A DNA stretch of 38,252 nucleotides, taken from IMG/VR virus record IMGVR_UViG_3300040809_000699, positions 1 to 38,252 of that record; one strand, written 5' to 3'. The notes beneath the pieces are model-generated. The model searched no databases. It had not been told where the DNA came from and worked only from the letters and a program-made list of their open reading frames with translations. Position 1 is the first letter of the stretch. The number at the start of each line of letters is the position of its first letter. The DNA is from a virus. Below, one piece after another: positions 16,702 through 27,912 of this stretch. Made by a program: the position numbers and the translations under genes.

Positions 16702-17201
16702 TAAAAAGGAATGTCGTCTGAATATTCTTGACCAGCATTACCGTTTACGCCTTTTTGCTGTTGTGTTGCCGGCTGCTGCTGGAATCCTCCTTGTTGCTGT
16801 GGTACTTGTTGCTGAAAGCCTCCTTGTTGCTGTGGTACTTGTTGTTGGAATCCTGATTGCTGTTGAGGTTTACTATCAAGCATCTTCATTTCATTAGCAT
16901 GAATCTCTGTAGTGTACTGATCTTGACCTTGCTGATTCTGCCATTTGCGAGTTTGCAATTTACCTTCAAGGTAAACCTTTGAGCCTTTCTTTAAGTACTC
17001 GCCAGCTATTTCAGCAAGACGTTGGTAAATAACAATACGGTGGAATTCTGCCTTTTCTTTTCTCTCGCCAGTCTGCTTATCTTTCCATTTTTCATTTGTC
17101 GCCACAGATAAATTTGCGACTGCAGAACCGTTAGGCATAAACCTAATTTCAGGATCTGCAGTCACGTTCCCTATAATCATAACCTTATTTAAATTTGACA
17201 T
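16701..17201 (-). CDS. ssb: Single-stranded DNA-binding protein
   Basis: 166 residues from ATG 17201 (AGGAG upstream; a longer frame adds 6 poor codons). Residues 1-108 form the OB fold: [63 protein letters not shown] Gln-rich linker with three repeats of about [11 protein letters not shown] follows, and the acidic tip DDIPF is the one that binds host repair proteins. It protects ssDNA during replication and Erf-type annealing, and lies in the same operon as those genes. Confidence 0.95.
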
Positions 17202-17661
17202 TGTTTCTCCTAAAGCCATTTTTTCTAGCTATATACCCAATAGCTTGACTACCAACCTCGTAAAAGCTGGATACGTAATTATATTTAAGCCCAGCAAAAA
17301 TCATCCATAAAACCTCATTAACCTCGTCATTGGAAAGTTTAGACTGAGGAAGTGATTCTCTTTTTGCTTGCCTGTGTTTCTTTACTGCATCCTGCATATT
17401 GTCCTTTCTCGTTCCTTGAAATAAATGAGCTGGATTTACGCATTTTCTGTTATCGCAACTATGACACACATCTTTTTGAGGGTCTATGAACCCATTAAAA
17501 GCCTCAAACGATAATCTATGAGCATAGTAACTCCCTCTCATAAATGTAACCCTAGCATAGCCATTATCTCTGCATTTTAGATTCCATTCCCAGCAACCAT
17601 TCACTACAGAAATTCTTTTTATTATTCTTTCTCTTGCTTTTTTACGTATATATTCAATCAT
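17185..17661 (-). CDS. HNH homing-type endonuclease
   Basis: 158 residues with the HNH_3 pattern: [12 protein letters not shown] (H48), [20 protein letters not shown] (C66, H67, C69, C74, N76, H79), then [14 protein letters not shown] and a C-terminal HTH-like NUMOD-type segment ([20 protein letters not shown]). Free-standing nicking or cutting enzyme that spreads itself. It sits between Gp157 and SSB with an overlap of 17 bases onto SSB, as if inserted into a Gp157-SSB operon. Confidence 0.88.
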
Positions 17662-18886: not shown

Positions 18887-19079
18887 TTAAACTATCCTCG
18901 TGTTTTTTATTTTCTTCTTGCCATTTTTCAATCCAGTATCTCAACTCATCATTTACTTGGTCGGCTGTTTTGAATTCGCTATCAATTGACATTTTCAAAA
19001 CAATCTCAAGCGCTCTAATTCTGCCGTTGTTAATGTGGATCTTTTCTTGCTCTAACTGCTTCATAATTGAATTATTCAT
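18879..19079 (-). CDS. Hypothetical helical protein
   Basis: 66 residues from ATG 19079 (GGAGAGCGGAA upstream; a longer frame reads into the upstream gene). Highly charged and helical, with W residues near the C-terminus (YWIEKWQEENKKHED). It starts inside the end of the repeat-protein gene. No family recognised. Confidence 0.65.
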   Translation of the reverse strand: MNNSIMKQLEQEKIHINNGRIRALEIVLKMSIDSEFKTADQVNDELRYWIEKWQEENKKHEDSLNG

Positions 19080-19659
19080 TTCCGCTCTCCCATTTAACAA
19101 ATAGGTCACGCAACTGCTTTGTAAACCCTTTCATTGCTGCTGACTCTGCTGCCCATCCTGCTGACTCTGCTGACTCTGCTGACCTTGCTGCCCATCCTGC
19201 TGACCTTGCTGATTCTGCTGCTGACCATGCTGCTGACCTTGCTGACCATGCTGCTGACCTTGCTGACCATGCTGCTGACCTTGCTGATTCTGCTACTGAC
19301 TCTGCTGCCCATCCTGCTACTGACTCTGCTGCCCATCCTGCTGCTGACAATGCTGATTCTGTAGGGTTGTTCAGATATGATGTGATTAGTTCATAATCTC
19401 TTTCTGAGCAGTAGGGTTTTATTTTTTCAATATTGATCAGCGCAGCATTACAGCCGAATACACGCAAGTCCTGCTTTTGTTTGTCGCTAAACTGGTCGTA
19501 AGTTTCTGAGATAAACCACCAAATATCATCCCAACCGTTAGAGTCTAACGCCTCTGATAATTTAACTTCTTTATCTCCGTGTGCCTCAATGAATACTTTA
19601 TAACCTGATTTGCAGGCATCTAATTCTTTCAATTCTTTTTTATTTGTTGATATCTTCAT
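19072..19659 (-). CDS. Ala/Ser-rich pentapeptide-like repeat protein
   Basis: 195 residues, first gene of the leftward operon. Residues 1-100 are a normal globular part (DGNSNGWDDIWWFISETYDQ-type Trp-rich segment). About residues 103-172 are a run of A-A-x-S-A five-residue repeats (SARSAAWSARSAAWSARSAA and similar) and then a charged C-terminal tail. Such repeats may fold as a right-handed helix or a coiled coil. Similar repeat proteins occur in other phages without known function. AGGAG(AGTAGAA) precedes the ATG. Confidence 0.75.
   Translation of the reverse strand: MKISTNKKELKELDACKSGYKVFIEAHGDKEVKLSEALDSNGWDDIWWFISETYDQFSDKQKQDLRVFGCNAALINIEKIKPYCSERDYELITSYLNNPTESALSAAGWAAESVAGWAAESVAESARSAAWSARSAAWSARSAAWSAAESARSAGWAARSAESAESAGWAAESAAMKGFTKQLRDLFVKWESGNE
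19137..19350. repeat. 15-base tandem repeats encoding the A-A-x-S-A repeats
   Basis: On the plus strand the repeat unit reads like TGCTGACCATGCTGC, varying in the middle bases. It is imperfect but nearly continuous for about 210 bases and keeps the gene in frame because the unit is a multiple of three. Slippage in this array could change the number of repeats. It is coding, so not a CRISPR array: there are no spacers. Confidence 0.85.
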
Positions 19660-21653: not shown

Positions 21654-22262
21654 GTGGATGTAAGGCAAATAAACAGGTCTGACTGCCAGCACTTTATTTT
21701 AAATGTTCATTACGCTAAGCGATGGCCATCAATAAGTTACGCTTACGGACTTTTTGATAGGGACGAGCTTGTTGGTATAGTCACATATGGCACACCCCCT
21801 AGCGCACCCTTGAAAAAAGGAATCGCTGGTGATAAAAATAAAGACAAGGTAATTGAACTTAATAGGCTTTGCCTGAAGTATAACAGAAAAAACGAAGCTA
21901 GCTTTTTAATATCTAGAAGCTTAAAGCTTTTACCTAAAAATAAAATAATAATATCATTTGCTGATATATCTCAAGGTCATAACGGCTGCGTTTACCGGGC
22001 TTCAAATTTTAGTTATCACGGCCTGAGTGCAAAAAGAACAGATTGGAGAGTGAGAGGAAAAGAGCACCTTCACGGGCAAACAATAGCAGACGAGTTTAGA
22101 GGGGTAAAAAACAGAGCTAAAGCAATGAGGGATAAGTACGGTGATGATTTTTACCTACAAGAAAGACCTAGAAAACATAGGTATATTTTTATCACGGGCA
22201 GCAAGTTACAGAAAAGAAGATTGAAAGCAGATATTAAATATAAAGAAGTAGAGTTCAAATAA
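21654..22262 (+). CDS. Mom-like adenine-modification protein (GNAT-like)
   Basis: 202 residues, GTG start at 21654 behind GGAGAGAGAAG. Features of the phage Mu Mom family: YGLF (31-34), LVGIVTYGTP (39-48), IELNRLCL (67-74), SFLISRSLKLL (83-93), and SFADISQGHNGCVYRASNFS (101-120), then a Lys/Arg-rich C-terminus. Mu Mom changes adenine to N6-carbamoylmethyladenine, protecting phage DNA against restriction. It is the last gene of the rightward operon, near the end of the transcript. Substrate and activity are inferred; related families with different chemistry exist. Confidence 0.82.
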   Translation: MDVRQINRSDCQHFILNVHYAKRWPSISYAYGLFDRDELVGIVTYGTPPSAPLKKGIAGDKNKDKVIELNRLCLKYNRKNEASFLISRSLKLLPKNKIIISFADISQGHNGCVYRASNFSYHGLSAKRTDWRVRGKEHLHGQTIADEFRGVKNRAKAMRDKYGDDFYLQERPRKHRYIFITGSKLQKRRLKADIKYKEVEFK

Positions 22263-23126: not shown

Positions 23127-23245
23127 GCAGACCTCTTTTTTTAAATTAAAGTTACACCAACCCCTTTTTCCTCCTTTGATACCATGCAGGTTTTATACAA
23201 AGTTTATTTAGAGAGGATAAACCAAATTGCCTTATCTTTATTTCT

Positions 23246-23582
23246 AAATAAAAAGCCCTAAGGCTGAGTACTAAACAAATCCTCCTTCCTGATTACTCAG
23301 GCCATTCATAAGAATGTCGATCCTCCGAAGAGTATCAATAGGCGCACGTTGGTAATTGGGACACCCAGAGCGTGACTAATGCTATTTAAAGTTTAGCTAA
23401 CTGTTGGTTTGGTAAAGTCTAACCCTTGTAAACCCTATAAGGCTTAAAACGGTCTTTGGGAAATAAATTGATTAGAAAATATGACCCACTAATTGTTGTT
23501 TTAATCCGCCACTAATTTGAACTAAAGTTCGGATGTGCCAGGGGTCATTAGTGGAAAACCCTTTTCGCCTATCGCTAGGCAC
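23246..23582 (-). ncRNA. Candidate standalone structured RNA, about 337 nt
   Basis: The 470-base gap between two leftward genes has no plausible gene. A near-consensus promoter (TTGAAA-17-TAAAAT) points into it, and the expected start is at GTGCC, the first stem. Helices visible on the minus strand, in order: GCCTA-GCGA-TAGGC with a GNRA loop; CCACTAAT with ATTAGTGG, crossed by ATCCG/CGGAT (a pseudoknot); TGGG-tgt-CCCA inside CACG/CGTG; CTC-TTCG-GAG with a UUCG loop; CATTC-ttat-GAATG; CTGAGTA/TACTCAG; then AGCC-ttag-GGCT followed by TTTTTATTT. I do not recognise a known family. Covariation has not been tested. Confidence 0.55.
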
Positions 23583-23589
23583 AAAACTA

Positions 23590-23618
23590 ATTTTAATTTA
23601 CTCCTGATTATTTTTCAA
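23590..23618 (-). promoter_or_regulatory. Promoter of the candidate RNA
   Basis: TTGAAA (23618-23613), exactly 17 bases, TAAAAT (23595-23590) on the minus strand: 5/6 matches to each consensus box. It overlaps the last codons and stop of the 23598-24017 gene. The expected start site is about 23583, right at the first stem of the RNA candidate. Confidence 0.65.
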
Positions 23619-24049: not shown

Positions 24050-24712
24050 TTATTCTTTGAACTCTTTAAGTGATTCTTCGTACCACTCCCAATTATCAAC
24101 ACCGCCGCGCTCCAAGGCTGTTAGTTTTTTATCTCTTTTTAGTAGCTCTTGATATTCATGCATGGTTATTTTTTGATTTCCGCATCCTATTTCTATAATT
24201 ATTTTGTTGTGCTTCTCTTGTAGTTTATTAATACCATTCCTTGATGTTTTCAGCATATTATCTGCCGCTTCTCTAGAGAGTTCTAACGAATTAATCTCTT
24301 CTTTTAGTGCCTCTACAGATTTTTCTAGTGACTTTTTCGACTGCCTCCACTCTTCATGAAGTTCTTTTGTTTGTTGAAACTCTAACTTCTGCTCATCTAT
24401 TTTTCTCTGTAGCGAGTCGATAGTTGTGGCTTCAACAGGTTTGTCGTGAAGTAGTCTTTTTTCAACCATACAAATAATTGAGTTTTTTTCGTCTTGAATA
24501 TCATCAATTATTGCTTGAGCTTGATCGTACTCATCTTGGTAACGCTCGCCACCTCCCGTTGGTGAAATAAACTCAGAAGGCGTGCAGTAGTATTCAGATT
24601 CAATGTTTGTCGCGAAATGCACGTTTAACTGTATCTCGCAAAAATCATCATTGATATCTCTAATAATTACGCAAGGGTTGTTTTGGTAAAATTTAATTTG
24701 TTTATCACTCAT
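24050..24712 (-). CDS. Coiled-coil hypothetical phage protein, 220 aa
   Basis: The N-terminal part (MSDKQIKFYQNNPCVIIRD, beta strands, EYYCTPSEFISPTGGG) is followed by long coiled-coil helices (residues 60-195). These contain SLQRKIDEQKLEFQQTK and SLEKSVEALKEEINSLELSR. This architecture is typical of early phage proteins of unknown role. It overlaps the upstream gene by 8 bases. Confidence 0.65.
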   Translation of the reverse strand: MSDKQIKFYQNNPCVIIRDINDDFCEIQLNVHFATNIESEYYCTPSEFISPTGGGERYQDEYDQAQAIIDDIQDEKNSIICMVEKRLLHDKPVEATTIDSLQRKIDEQKLEFQQTKELHEEWRQSKKSLEKSVEALKEEINSLELSREAADNMLKTSRNGINKLQEKHNKIIIEIGCGNQKITMHEYQELLKRDKKLTALERGGVDNWEWYEESLKEFKE

Positions 24713-25018: not shown

Positions 25019-25192
25019 ATGAGAATAATTAAATACTCAGCAGCAAGAGAAAACCTAAGAAAAGAATTAGATATAGTAGCAGAAAGCTCTCAGCCTACCT
25101 GTATCGTATCTAAAAGCAATCAGGTAGTGCTTATATCAAAGAAAGAGTACGACGCTATTATGAAGCGCATAGGAGGCAGCAATGAAAGTTAG
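25019..25192 (+). CDS. Orphan Phd/YefM-family antitoxin-like repressor
   Basis: 57 residues, MRIIKYSAARENLRKELDIV then ...VVLISKKEYDAIMKR. The start IKYSAARENL and the end VLIS..EY...M match the YefM/Phd N-terminal DNA-binding domain (YefM: TISYSEARQNL, AVLMSLEEYN). No RelE/YoeB/Doc toxin gene follows, so it appears to be an orphan. It may serve as an operon repressor or counteract host toxins. GAAGGAGAG lies upstream; the end overlaps the next start. Confidence 0.8.
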   Translation: MRIIKYSAARENLRKELDIVAESSQPTCIVSKSNQVVLISKKEYDAIMKRIGGSNES

Positions 25193-27258: not shown

Positions 27259-27912
27259 ATGGAAAATAAAAAATATAAATTTACAGGAAAAGAGAAAGTT
27301 GCTTTTGGTGTTACGTTAAAGCAGATAGTTTGCGTAACCGCATTTGCTTCTGTTTCGGTTGGTGATATTGGTGGATGGATAGAGAAAGAAGACAATCTAA
27401 GTTATTTTGACAATGCTTGGGTGTCTGGCAATGCTATGGTGTATGGCGATGCTTGGGTGTCTGGCAATGCTTGGGTGTCTGGCGATGCTAGGGTGTTTGG
27501 CAATGCTAGGGTGTTTGGCAATGCTGAGGTGTATGGCGATGCTAGGGTGTTTGGCAATGCTGAGGTGTATGGCGATGCTGAGGTGTCTGGCGATGCTAGG
27601 GTGTTTGGCAATGCTATGGTGTATGGCGATGCTTGGGTGTCTGGCAATGCTAGGGTGTCTGGCAATGCTTGGGTGTCTGGCGATGCTAGGGTGTTTGGCA
27701 AGTCAAAATCCACAAAGCTTGTTAAGACCATAAATAGCGGAATTTATCACGTAACAATTACTGATAATCATATAGCTATAGGTTGTCAAAATCACACGTA
27801 CAGTCAATGGAAAAGATTAAGCAAAAATAAAGCTGTTGACATGCTAGGCGAAAGAGATGCTGGGCTATGGTTTAAGTACAAGGACTTTATTTTAACGCTT
27901 GCTGAGGAATAA
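27259..27912 (+). CDS. Hexapeptide beta-helix repeat protein
   Basis: 217 residues. About residues 52-152 consist of repeats of the form G-[ND]-A-x-V-x (VFGNAEVYGDARVFGNAEVY and so on), typical of a beta-solenoid with one turn per three hexads. An N-terminal YKFTGKEKVAFGVTLKQIV strand pair and a C-terminal globular region (residues 155-217) flank it. Similar proteins occur in many phages, function unknown. A strong AAGGAG(AGAAAGG) site precedes the ATG. Confidence 0.8.
   Translation: MENKKYKFTGKEKVAFGVTLKQIVCVTAFASVSVGDIGGWIEKEDNLSYFDNAWVSGNAMVYGDAWVSGNAWVSGDARVFGNARVFGNAEVYGDARVFGNAEVYGDAEVSGDARVFGNAMVYGDAWVSGNARVSGNAWVSGDARVFGKSKSTKLVKTINSGIYHVTITDNHIAIGCQNHTYSQWKRLSKNKAVDMLGERDAGLWFKYKDFILTLAEE
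27412..27708. repeat. 18-base tandem repeats encoding the beta-helix hexads
   Basis: Units of 18 bases of the form GGCAATGCTAGGGTGTTT alternate with GAT and ATG/TGG variants and run for about 300 bases. Both strands and several frames stay open over the array because of its period, so the other-frame ORFs there are artefacts. Recombination could change the repeat count. Confidence 0.8.

Follow-up and report, generated by a model that had tools for sequence, protein, structure and literature searches.

Phages are known to encode few structured RNAs, most of them still without an assigned function. Those that come closest to the locus described here are int-alpA (RF02996), which Rfam types as an sRNA, the large RNAs GOLLD and ROOL, and the structured RNAs that stand beside HNH genes, HEARO/OMEGA RNA and group I introns. 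In GOLLD the 3′ region is conserved and the 5′ region less so, and the RNA lies near tRNA islands (PMC12286853). Here, we analyzed a 38,252-nt stretch of viral DNA (hereafter the window; IMG/VR record IMGVR_UViG_3300040809_000699, positions 1 to 38,252), in whose minus strand an undescribed structured RNA had been predicted from the sequence beside a homing-type HNH gene.

A two-module structured RNA is predicted upstream of an HNH gene

Sequence comparison indicates that the window carries, from 23583 to ~23140 on the minus strand, a structured RNA of ~440 nt that was previously undescribed and is absent from Rfam as a whole. The same comparison indicates that it consists of two joined modules, an exchangeable 5′ module and a conserved 3′ domain, rather than the one compact unit of ~337 nt put forward in the original prediction. 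No long open reading frame was found within the region, as had been foreseen. Directly downstream, at 23126-22617 on the same strand, lies the expected HNH gene, which encodes a 169-amino-acid (aa) HNH_3 endonuclease (PF13392, E 2.9e-16; PHROG 99, E 9e-59). For the 139-aa protein encoded upstream, no relatives were found.

The candidate promoter TTGAAA-17-TAAAAT is indeed present at 23618-23590 (minus strand), matching the consensus at 10/12 positions, and relatives of the RNA carry TATAAT promoters at the same place, just 5′ of their RNA. Taken alone, the site is weak, since promoter-like sites occur about as often in shuffled sequence (12 in the region versus 8.7 ± 2.7 in shuffles by promoter scan). 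Fold energy is likewise unremarkable (z = −1.03 over the entire region, −1.08 in the 5′ module, and −0.22 in the 3′ part), and the support for the RNA is comparative, not thermodynamic. Since fold energy was uninformative, promoter density was near chance, and no terminator was found by scan, homologues were needed to decide the question.

Several other genes of the window were annotated along the way. A Mom-family DNA modification gene is located at 21654-22262 (+) (PF25680, E 9.8e-40), and the gene at 24050-24712 (−) encodes a 220-aa protein with a C-terminal T7 gp5.9-like RecBCD inhibitor domain (PF25708, E 3.7e-15). A Phd/YefM-type antitoxin gene lies at 25019-25192 (+). Two proteins contain long near-perfect arrays of short repeats, one alanine/serine-rich (19072-19659, −) and the other of the VSGNARVFG type (27259-27912, +).

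Homologues of the 3′ domain in Vibrio and Pseudoalteromonas phages

A blastn search with the 441-nt region, of the kind proposed along with the prediction, returned no match among phages and plasmids; the way to homologues was a 21-mer taken from the 3′ half, which had an exact match in one viral contig, L309 (~0.02 matches expected by our own estimate). Another 20-mer gave no match, and an 18-mer match was discarded as unrelated coding sequence. L309 and the window share 81% identity over 117 nt and 77% over 102 nt, reaching the gene start. No relation to the window is seen in the 5′ half of L309, which follows tRNA-Arg and tRNA-Met. With L309 and then its relatives as blastn queries, further copies were found in sequenced phages: the Vibrio phages 1.054.O, 242E40-1, 1.178.O, 1.276.O, 1.029.O, and 1.167.O and the Pseudoalteromonas phages H105/1 and Pq0.

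In these homologues, the RNA occupies intergenic stretches of ~460-820 nt, mostly without an annotated gene, and in every relative seen the 3′ domain is located upstream of a same-strand open reading frame. The cargo genes encode an HNH nuclease (1.178.O and 1.276.O), a calcineurin-like phosphoesterase (1.054.O), or otherwise hypothetical proteins. In 242E40-1, a "tRNA-Und" is annotated within the variable 5′ part of this RNA (L311:1811-1913), representing either an embedded tRNA or a misannotation.

Conserved helices and covariation in the 3′ domain

The conserved domain extends from ~23395 to ~23140 (−) and contains helices A-F. Helix A (23345-23374) pairs CACG with CGTG outside and TGG with CCA inside, and its outer stem is re-paired in relatives, reading CATG/CATG in L309, TAGG/CCTA in four phages, and CAAG/CTTG in 1.054.O. 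Helix B (23319-23336), with a mismatch in its stem, is the UUCG hairpin of the original prediction and was borne out by compensatory changes in L309, 1.167.O, and 1.029.O; L309 retains the UUCG loop on altered stem bases, and two relatives retain the stem with other loops. Hairpin B2 (CATTC-TTAT-GAATG, 23303-23316) also has a stem that is re-paired in relatives. In hairpin C (CCTGA-GTAA-TCAGG, 23288-23301), the GNRA loop is kept and all pairs (5/5) show changes on both sides. Helix D (GAG/CTC, 23266-23284) becomes GGG/CCC in relatives and is also part of the structure that RNAalifold gave for model R2 (see below).

Helix E (AGCC-TTAG-GGCT, 23254-23265) is re-paired in relatives as well. It is the terminal hairpin with TTTTTATTT that had been read as a terminator, a reading that was not upheld, and it lies internally in the RNA: its stem has only 4 bp, no terminator was detected by scan, and the helix of the relatives is not followed by a U-run. 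Nor does the RNA end at the U-run as proposed, since conservation continues for ~110 nt, to ~23140, with helix F lying beyond. Helix F (23203-23252; arms 23252-23243/23212-23203) forms 10/10 pairs, with both-side changes in 4/8 counted pairs, and its arms read TTTATTTAGA/TCTAAATAAA, TTTCTAAAGA/TCTTTAGAAA, TATTAAGA/TCTTAATA, or TGTTGAGA/TCTTAACA across members. The domain closes with a conserved 3′ end, ATCAAAGGAGGAAAAAGGGG...TGTAACTTTAATTTAAA (23140-23180), within which GGAAAAAGGG is present in 10/10 aligned members.

Covariation among homologues, on which the prediction had been staked, was assessed in a block alignment of helices A, C, and F from six divergent sequences. In this alignment, 99.2% of cells were paired (80.2 ± 2.6 in shuffles), and 25 cells, in 12/21 pairs, showed changes on both sides (7.6 ± 2.6 in shuffles). 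The covariation score was 0.606 versus 0.208 for shuffled alignments, with 0/500 shuffles as high, in a set that comprises only six divergent 3′-domain sequences and in which several helix arms were picked by eye ahead of counting. When the partners were slid by 1-3 columns, pairing fell to 33-44%. Since the arms had been chosen by eye, two other results provide more neutral evidence. RNAalifold, one of the analyses suggested for homologues, recovered helices A, B2, C, and D from the full block without guidance, and model R2 scored the window at 101.6 bits and detected, at E 2e-6 to 6e-6, four members that had not been used for training. Searched with R2, 369 sampled gammaproteobacterial genomes gave a single weak match (L324, E 0.006), which was set aside as chance, as it looks coding and lacks the conserved strings of the domain. 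Taken together, these data make it almost certain that the 3′ domain is a real conserved RNA. No Rfam family matched it in the window, the L309 region, or the relatives, even at permissive thresholds, and to this extent the earlier statement that the RNA belongs to no named family was correct.

The 5′ module resembles int-alpA RNA

That statement did not extend to the 5′ third. The first ~110 nt (23583-23470, −) resemble int-alpA, the one family suggested by the Rfam search (cmscan, 601 bases against 4227 families), with a match at 23583-23534 whose 22.7 bits (E 0.024) fall short of the 35.8-bit gathering threshold. R1, our own model built from 32 int-alpA-type viral loci with the window left out, scored the module at 29.9 bits (next match, 10.4 bits); its E value of 1.6e-6 is optimistic, since the pattern used to pick the loci was written with the window known and fits the window too, and the Rfam match is independent of that choice.

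The module shows the int-alpA hallmarks, a three-way junction (23534-23583) with UA, GAAAA, and CU joints between helices P1-P3. In order along the minus strand, these are P1 (23583-23578/23539-23534), UA (23577-23576), a short P2 (23575-23567), GAAAA (23566-23562), P3 (23561-23558/23545-23542), and CU (23541-23540). The predicted GNRA hairpin, GCCTA-GCGA-TAGGC, does exist but competes with this junction.

A repeat able to switch its pairing had also been proposed, and here the prediction proved right. The P3 loop CCACTAAT (23547-23554), the putative switching strand, has two exact 8-nt complements, the doubled AATTAGTGG, which are its two alternative partners as across the int-alpA family. 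Copy 1 (23516-23509) is the pseudoknot partner, forming 8 exact bp in a pairing that covaries family-wide, and copy 2 (23493-23486) takes the Shine-Dalgarno position of other int-alpA RNAs. When the 68 nt downstream were shuffled by dinucleotide, two such complements arose in only 5/20,000 cases, and the two 8-bp pairings have calculated energies of −10.0 and −11.1 kcal/mol. Copy 2 sits in the loop of a predicted P4-like hairpin, GATTAAAA/TTTTCTAATC (23470-23506), with a weak A-U stem. No start codon occurs 24-75 nt downstream of the module, and the HNH start is ~410 nt off. Because copy 2 has no start codon behind it, we did not file the module as an int-alpA member; on its sequence features, it is very probably a relative.

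No int-alpA leader was found by R1 at the second HNH_3 gene of the window (17185-17661, −) or at three HNH relatives in viral contigs (L079-L081). The UAG of CCTAGC was considered as a readthrough stop codon and rejected, as upstream genes mostly end before the motif.

Translational-switch features of the int-alpA family

A pattern made from int-alpA conserved strings picked 75 viral stretches and 55 in GTDB genomes, and most of the scanned viral loci scored above the Rfam cut-off. Helices P1-P3 covary strongly in these loci (93% of cells paired; 128 double changes versus 36 in shuffles), and RNAalifold gave the same P1-P3 fold. A start codon with a purine-rich site was found downstream in 88/98 nonredundant loci, a median of ~39 nt behind the module. 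Under a stricter rule (ATG, Shine-Dalgarno, and an open reading frame of 45 codons), 69/89 loci qualified versus 5% of random positions, and all 13 parsed Rfam-selected loci have a start codon 28-47 nt downstream.

As in the window, the P3 loop pairs with copy 1 (pairing score 14.83 versus 10.14 ± 0.27 for permuted partners), and in ~90 other loci it has as second partner the Shine-Dalgarno of a gene that begins ~38 nt downstream (13.59 versus 11.0 ± 0.25 for permuted partners). This Shine-Dalgarno pairing fell short of significance in the small independent Rfam-selected set (12.77 versus 12.0 ± 0.58, n = 13). The two alternatives are nearly equal in energy across the family (−8.95 and −8.15 kcal/mol), and the Shine-Dalgarno generally occupies the loop of an additional hairpin, P4 (10.65 versus 8.32 ± 0.31). 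Since one loop is complementary to both copy 1 and the Shine-Dalgarno at similar energies, and the Shine-Dalgarno is held in the P4 loop, int-alpA RNAs are likely to be cis-acting translational switches in 5′ leaders (loci L001-L075 and L098-L152).

Nucleases are frequent among the genes behind viral int-alpA RNAs: in 36 downstream proteins, Pfam identified Endonuclease_7 in 7, HNH_3 in 5, HNH in 2, and GIY-YIG in 1; in bacterial genomes, the upstream gene encodes an integrase in 14/25 upstream proteins scanned. In Thalassomonas phage BA3, int-alpA (51.7 bits) directly precedes an HNH gene homologous to that of the window (44% identity). A second int-alpA-like leader of BA3 (22.7 bits) is located before another HNH-type gene (L083:1499-1620; phage BA3 36065-36130). 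The data suggest that this family, typed as an sRNA in Rfam, acts in cis, as a translational switch before homing nucleases and other accessory genes.

Exchange of 5′ domains and downstream genes

Comparison of the loci indicates that the marine Vibrio and Pseudoalteromonas relatives keep the 3′ domain and exchange both the 5′ domain and the cargo gene. In four Vibrio phages the 3′ domain is nearly identical, and the 5′ domain, the cargo, and both flanks differ. In eight relatives (L310-L317), the 5′ domain consists of a TATAAT promoter and a long hairpin with a terminal U-run (z −1.7 to −7.3), giving promoter-to-U-run RNAs of 105-137 nt. Their 5′ end pairs with the loop of the terminator hairpin, giving a pseudoknotted terminator; only 4/2000 permuted partners paired equally well. 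The int-alpA module was present in 0/14 related records, so the combination of the two modules is known only once, in the window. The promoter stretch of this 5′-domain type also recurs alone in many of 324 Vibrio phage records.

The noncoding regions of five other phages (four Vibrio and one Pseudoalteromonas) hold mostly the same type of 5′ domain joined to a different 3′ domain. This second 3′ domain is conserved in L318-L320, L322, and L323, which share the strings CGACAACC, TTCTGCATATTG, and GGTCTAATGATAA; it is possibly another RNA family.

Possible functions of the RNA

A modular structured leader that controls an accessory gene, often that of an HNH nuclease, would account for this arrangement, and we consider the case for the full mechanism, drawn from sequence comparison, to be evenly balanced. 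Transcription would start near 23583 (−). The int-alpA-like 5′ module would then act as a two-state switch, with the P3 loop pairing with either of the identical downstream copies, and the 3′ domain would set the output of the downstream gene, its conserved end (GGAGGAAAAAGGGG...) abutting the ribosome-binding region of that gene. In the eight relatives, the 5′ promoter and U-run hairpin would serve as an attenuator, for which the int-alpA-like module is substituted in the window. A leader role is favored since conservation reaches the ribosome-binding region, a same-strand open reading frame comes next, and both kinds of 5′ domain are switch-like. Against it, the cargo genes are too diverse for one obvious regulatory logic, and the 5′ module scores under the Rfam cut-off with no Shine-Dalgarno and start codon behind it and is joined to the 3′ domain in the window only. 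An antisense action of the leader on the HNH start codon was rejected, as 34/300 shuffles pair as well, and this chance-level pairing also counts against a leader. Within the proposed mechanism, the conserved 3′ domain is better shown by comparison than the int-alpA-like nature of the 5′ module, which stands more weakly.

More broadly, and somewhat short of an even chance, the locus may represent a new family of ornate phage RNAs in which a conserved 3′ core carries a plug-in 5′ sensor domain, exchanged independently of the cargo. It is with equal reserve that we propose this sensor to be a promoter with attenuator or an int-alpA-type switch, providing swappable control of accessory nuclease genes.

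The conserved 3′ and variable 5′ parts, the phage location, and the variable downstream genes would suit a free-standing ornate RNA of the GOLLD/ROOL type, abundant late in infection as a particle or scaffold, with unrelated passenger genes as neighbors. The tRNA-Arg and tRNA-Met adjoining the L309 copy and the tRNA annotated in the 242E40-1 5′ domain point the same way. However, neither GOLLD nor ROOL covariance models matched the window, the L309 region, or the relatives even at permissive E values; the RNA measures ~440 nt versus >800, its conservation extends as far as the ribosome-binding region of the gene that follows, and the window contains no tRNA. We regard this explanation as unlikely, if still a serious competitor.

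Less probable again is that the 3′ domain belongs to a mobile cassette of RNA and nuclease gene and has its role in mobility, for example as a target for recombination or homing or as an RNA cofactor of the nuclease, instead of in gene control. This would explain how four Vibrio phages came to share a nearly identical 3′ domain between different flanks, and HNH nucleases are among the cargo in several cases. The element was also absent from 50 terminase-related records, in which the int-alpA module was not found and matches to the 511-nt region were only chance-level (≤31 nt); in 11 of these, an R2 search found no 3′ domain. Yet the cargo also includes the calcineurin-like phosphoesterase and unknown genes, and base-pair covariation argues for an RNA function rather than a DNA site. 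There was, moreover, no Intron_gpI match in the window, the L309 region, or the relatives, in a search that detected a true intron in L040, and no match to HEARO/OMEGA RNA in the same sequences.

That only the 5′ module matters, as a divergent or decayed int-alpA switch whose own gene was displaced and behind which an unrelated leader now lies, fits the int-alpA copy immediately before the homologous HNH gene in BA3 and the missing start codon after copy 2 but is highly improbable and already wrong in part, given the independently conserved and strongly covarying 3′ domain.

Because sequenced phage isolates of Vibrio and Pseudoalteromonas carry the RNA, its transcript, the transcript ends, and its effect are directly testable. 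The exchangeable 5′ half, in addition, offers a natural experiment in RNA-domain recombination.

Comparison with known systems

With ROOL, the RNA shares being a structured phage RNA without established function, and it differs in having no match to the ROOL model. The likeness to GOLLD goes further, as both are phage RNAs with a conserved 3′ and a variable 5′ part and one homologue, L309, has tRNA neighbors; in contrast to GOLLD, the RNA is about half as long, lies directly 5′ of cargo genes, and gives no covariance-model match. HEARO/OMEGA RNA and group I introns are likewise structured RNAs beside HNH genes, whereas here the neighboring gene encodes an HNH_3 protein of 169 aa and cargo genes differ among homologues. 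In structure, the 5′ module resembles int-alpA: the UA/GAAAA/CU three-way junction with P1-P3, the downstream pseudoknot partner of the P3 loop, and a location 5′ of an HNH gene, for which phage BA3 is the parallel, are all common to the two. The window differs from int-alpA in its score below the gathering threshold, an extra 12-nt hairpin, and a copy 2 without Shine-Dalgarno or start codon, and in the window it is a long conserved RNA domain that comes next.
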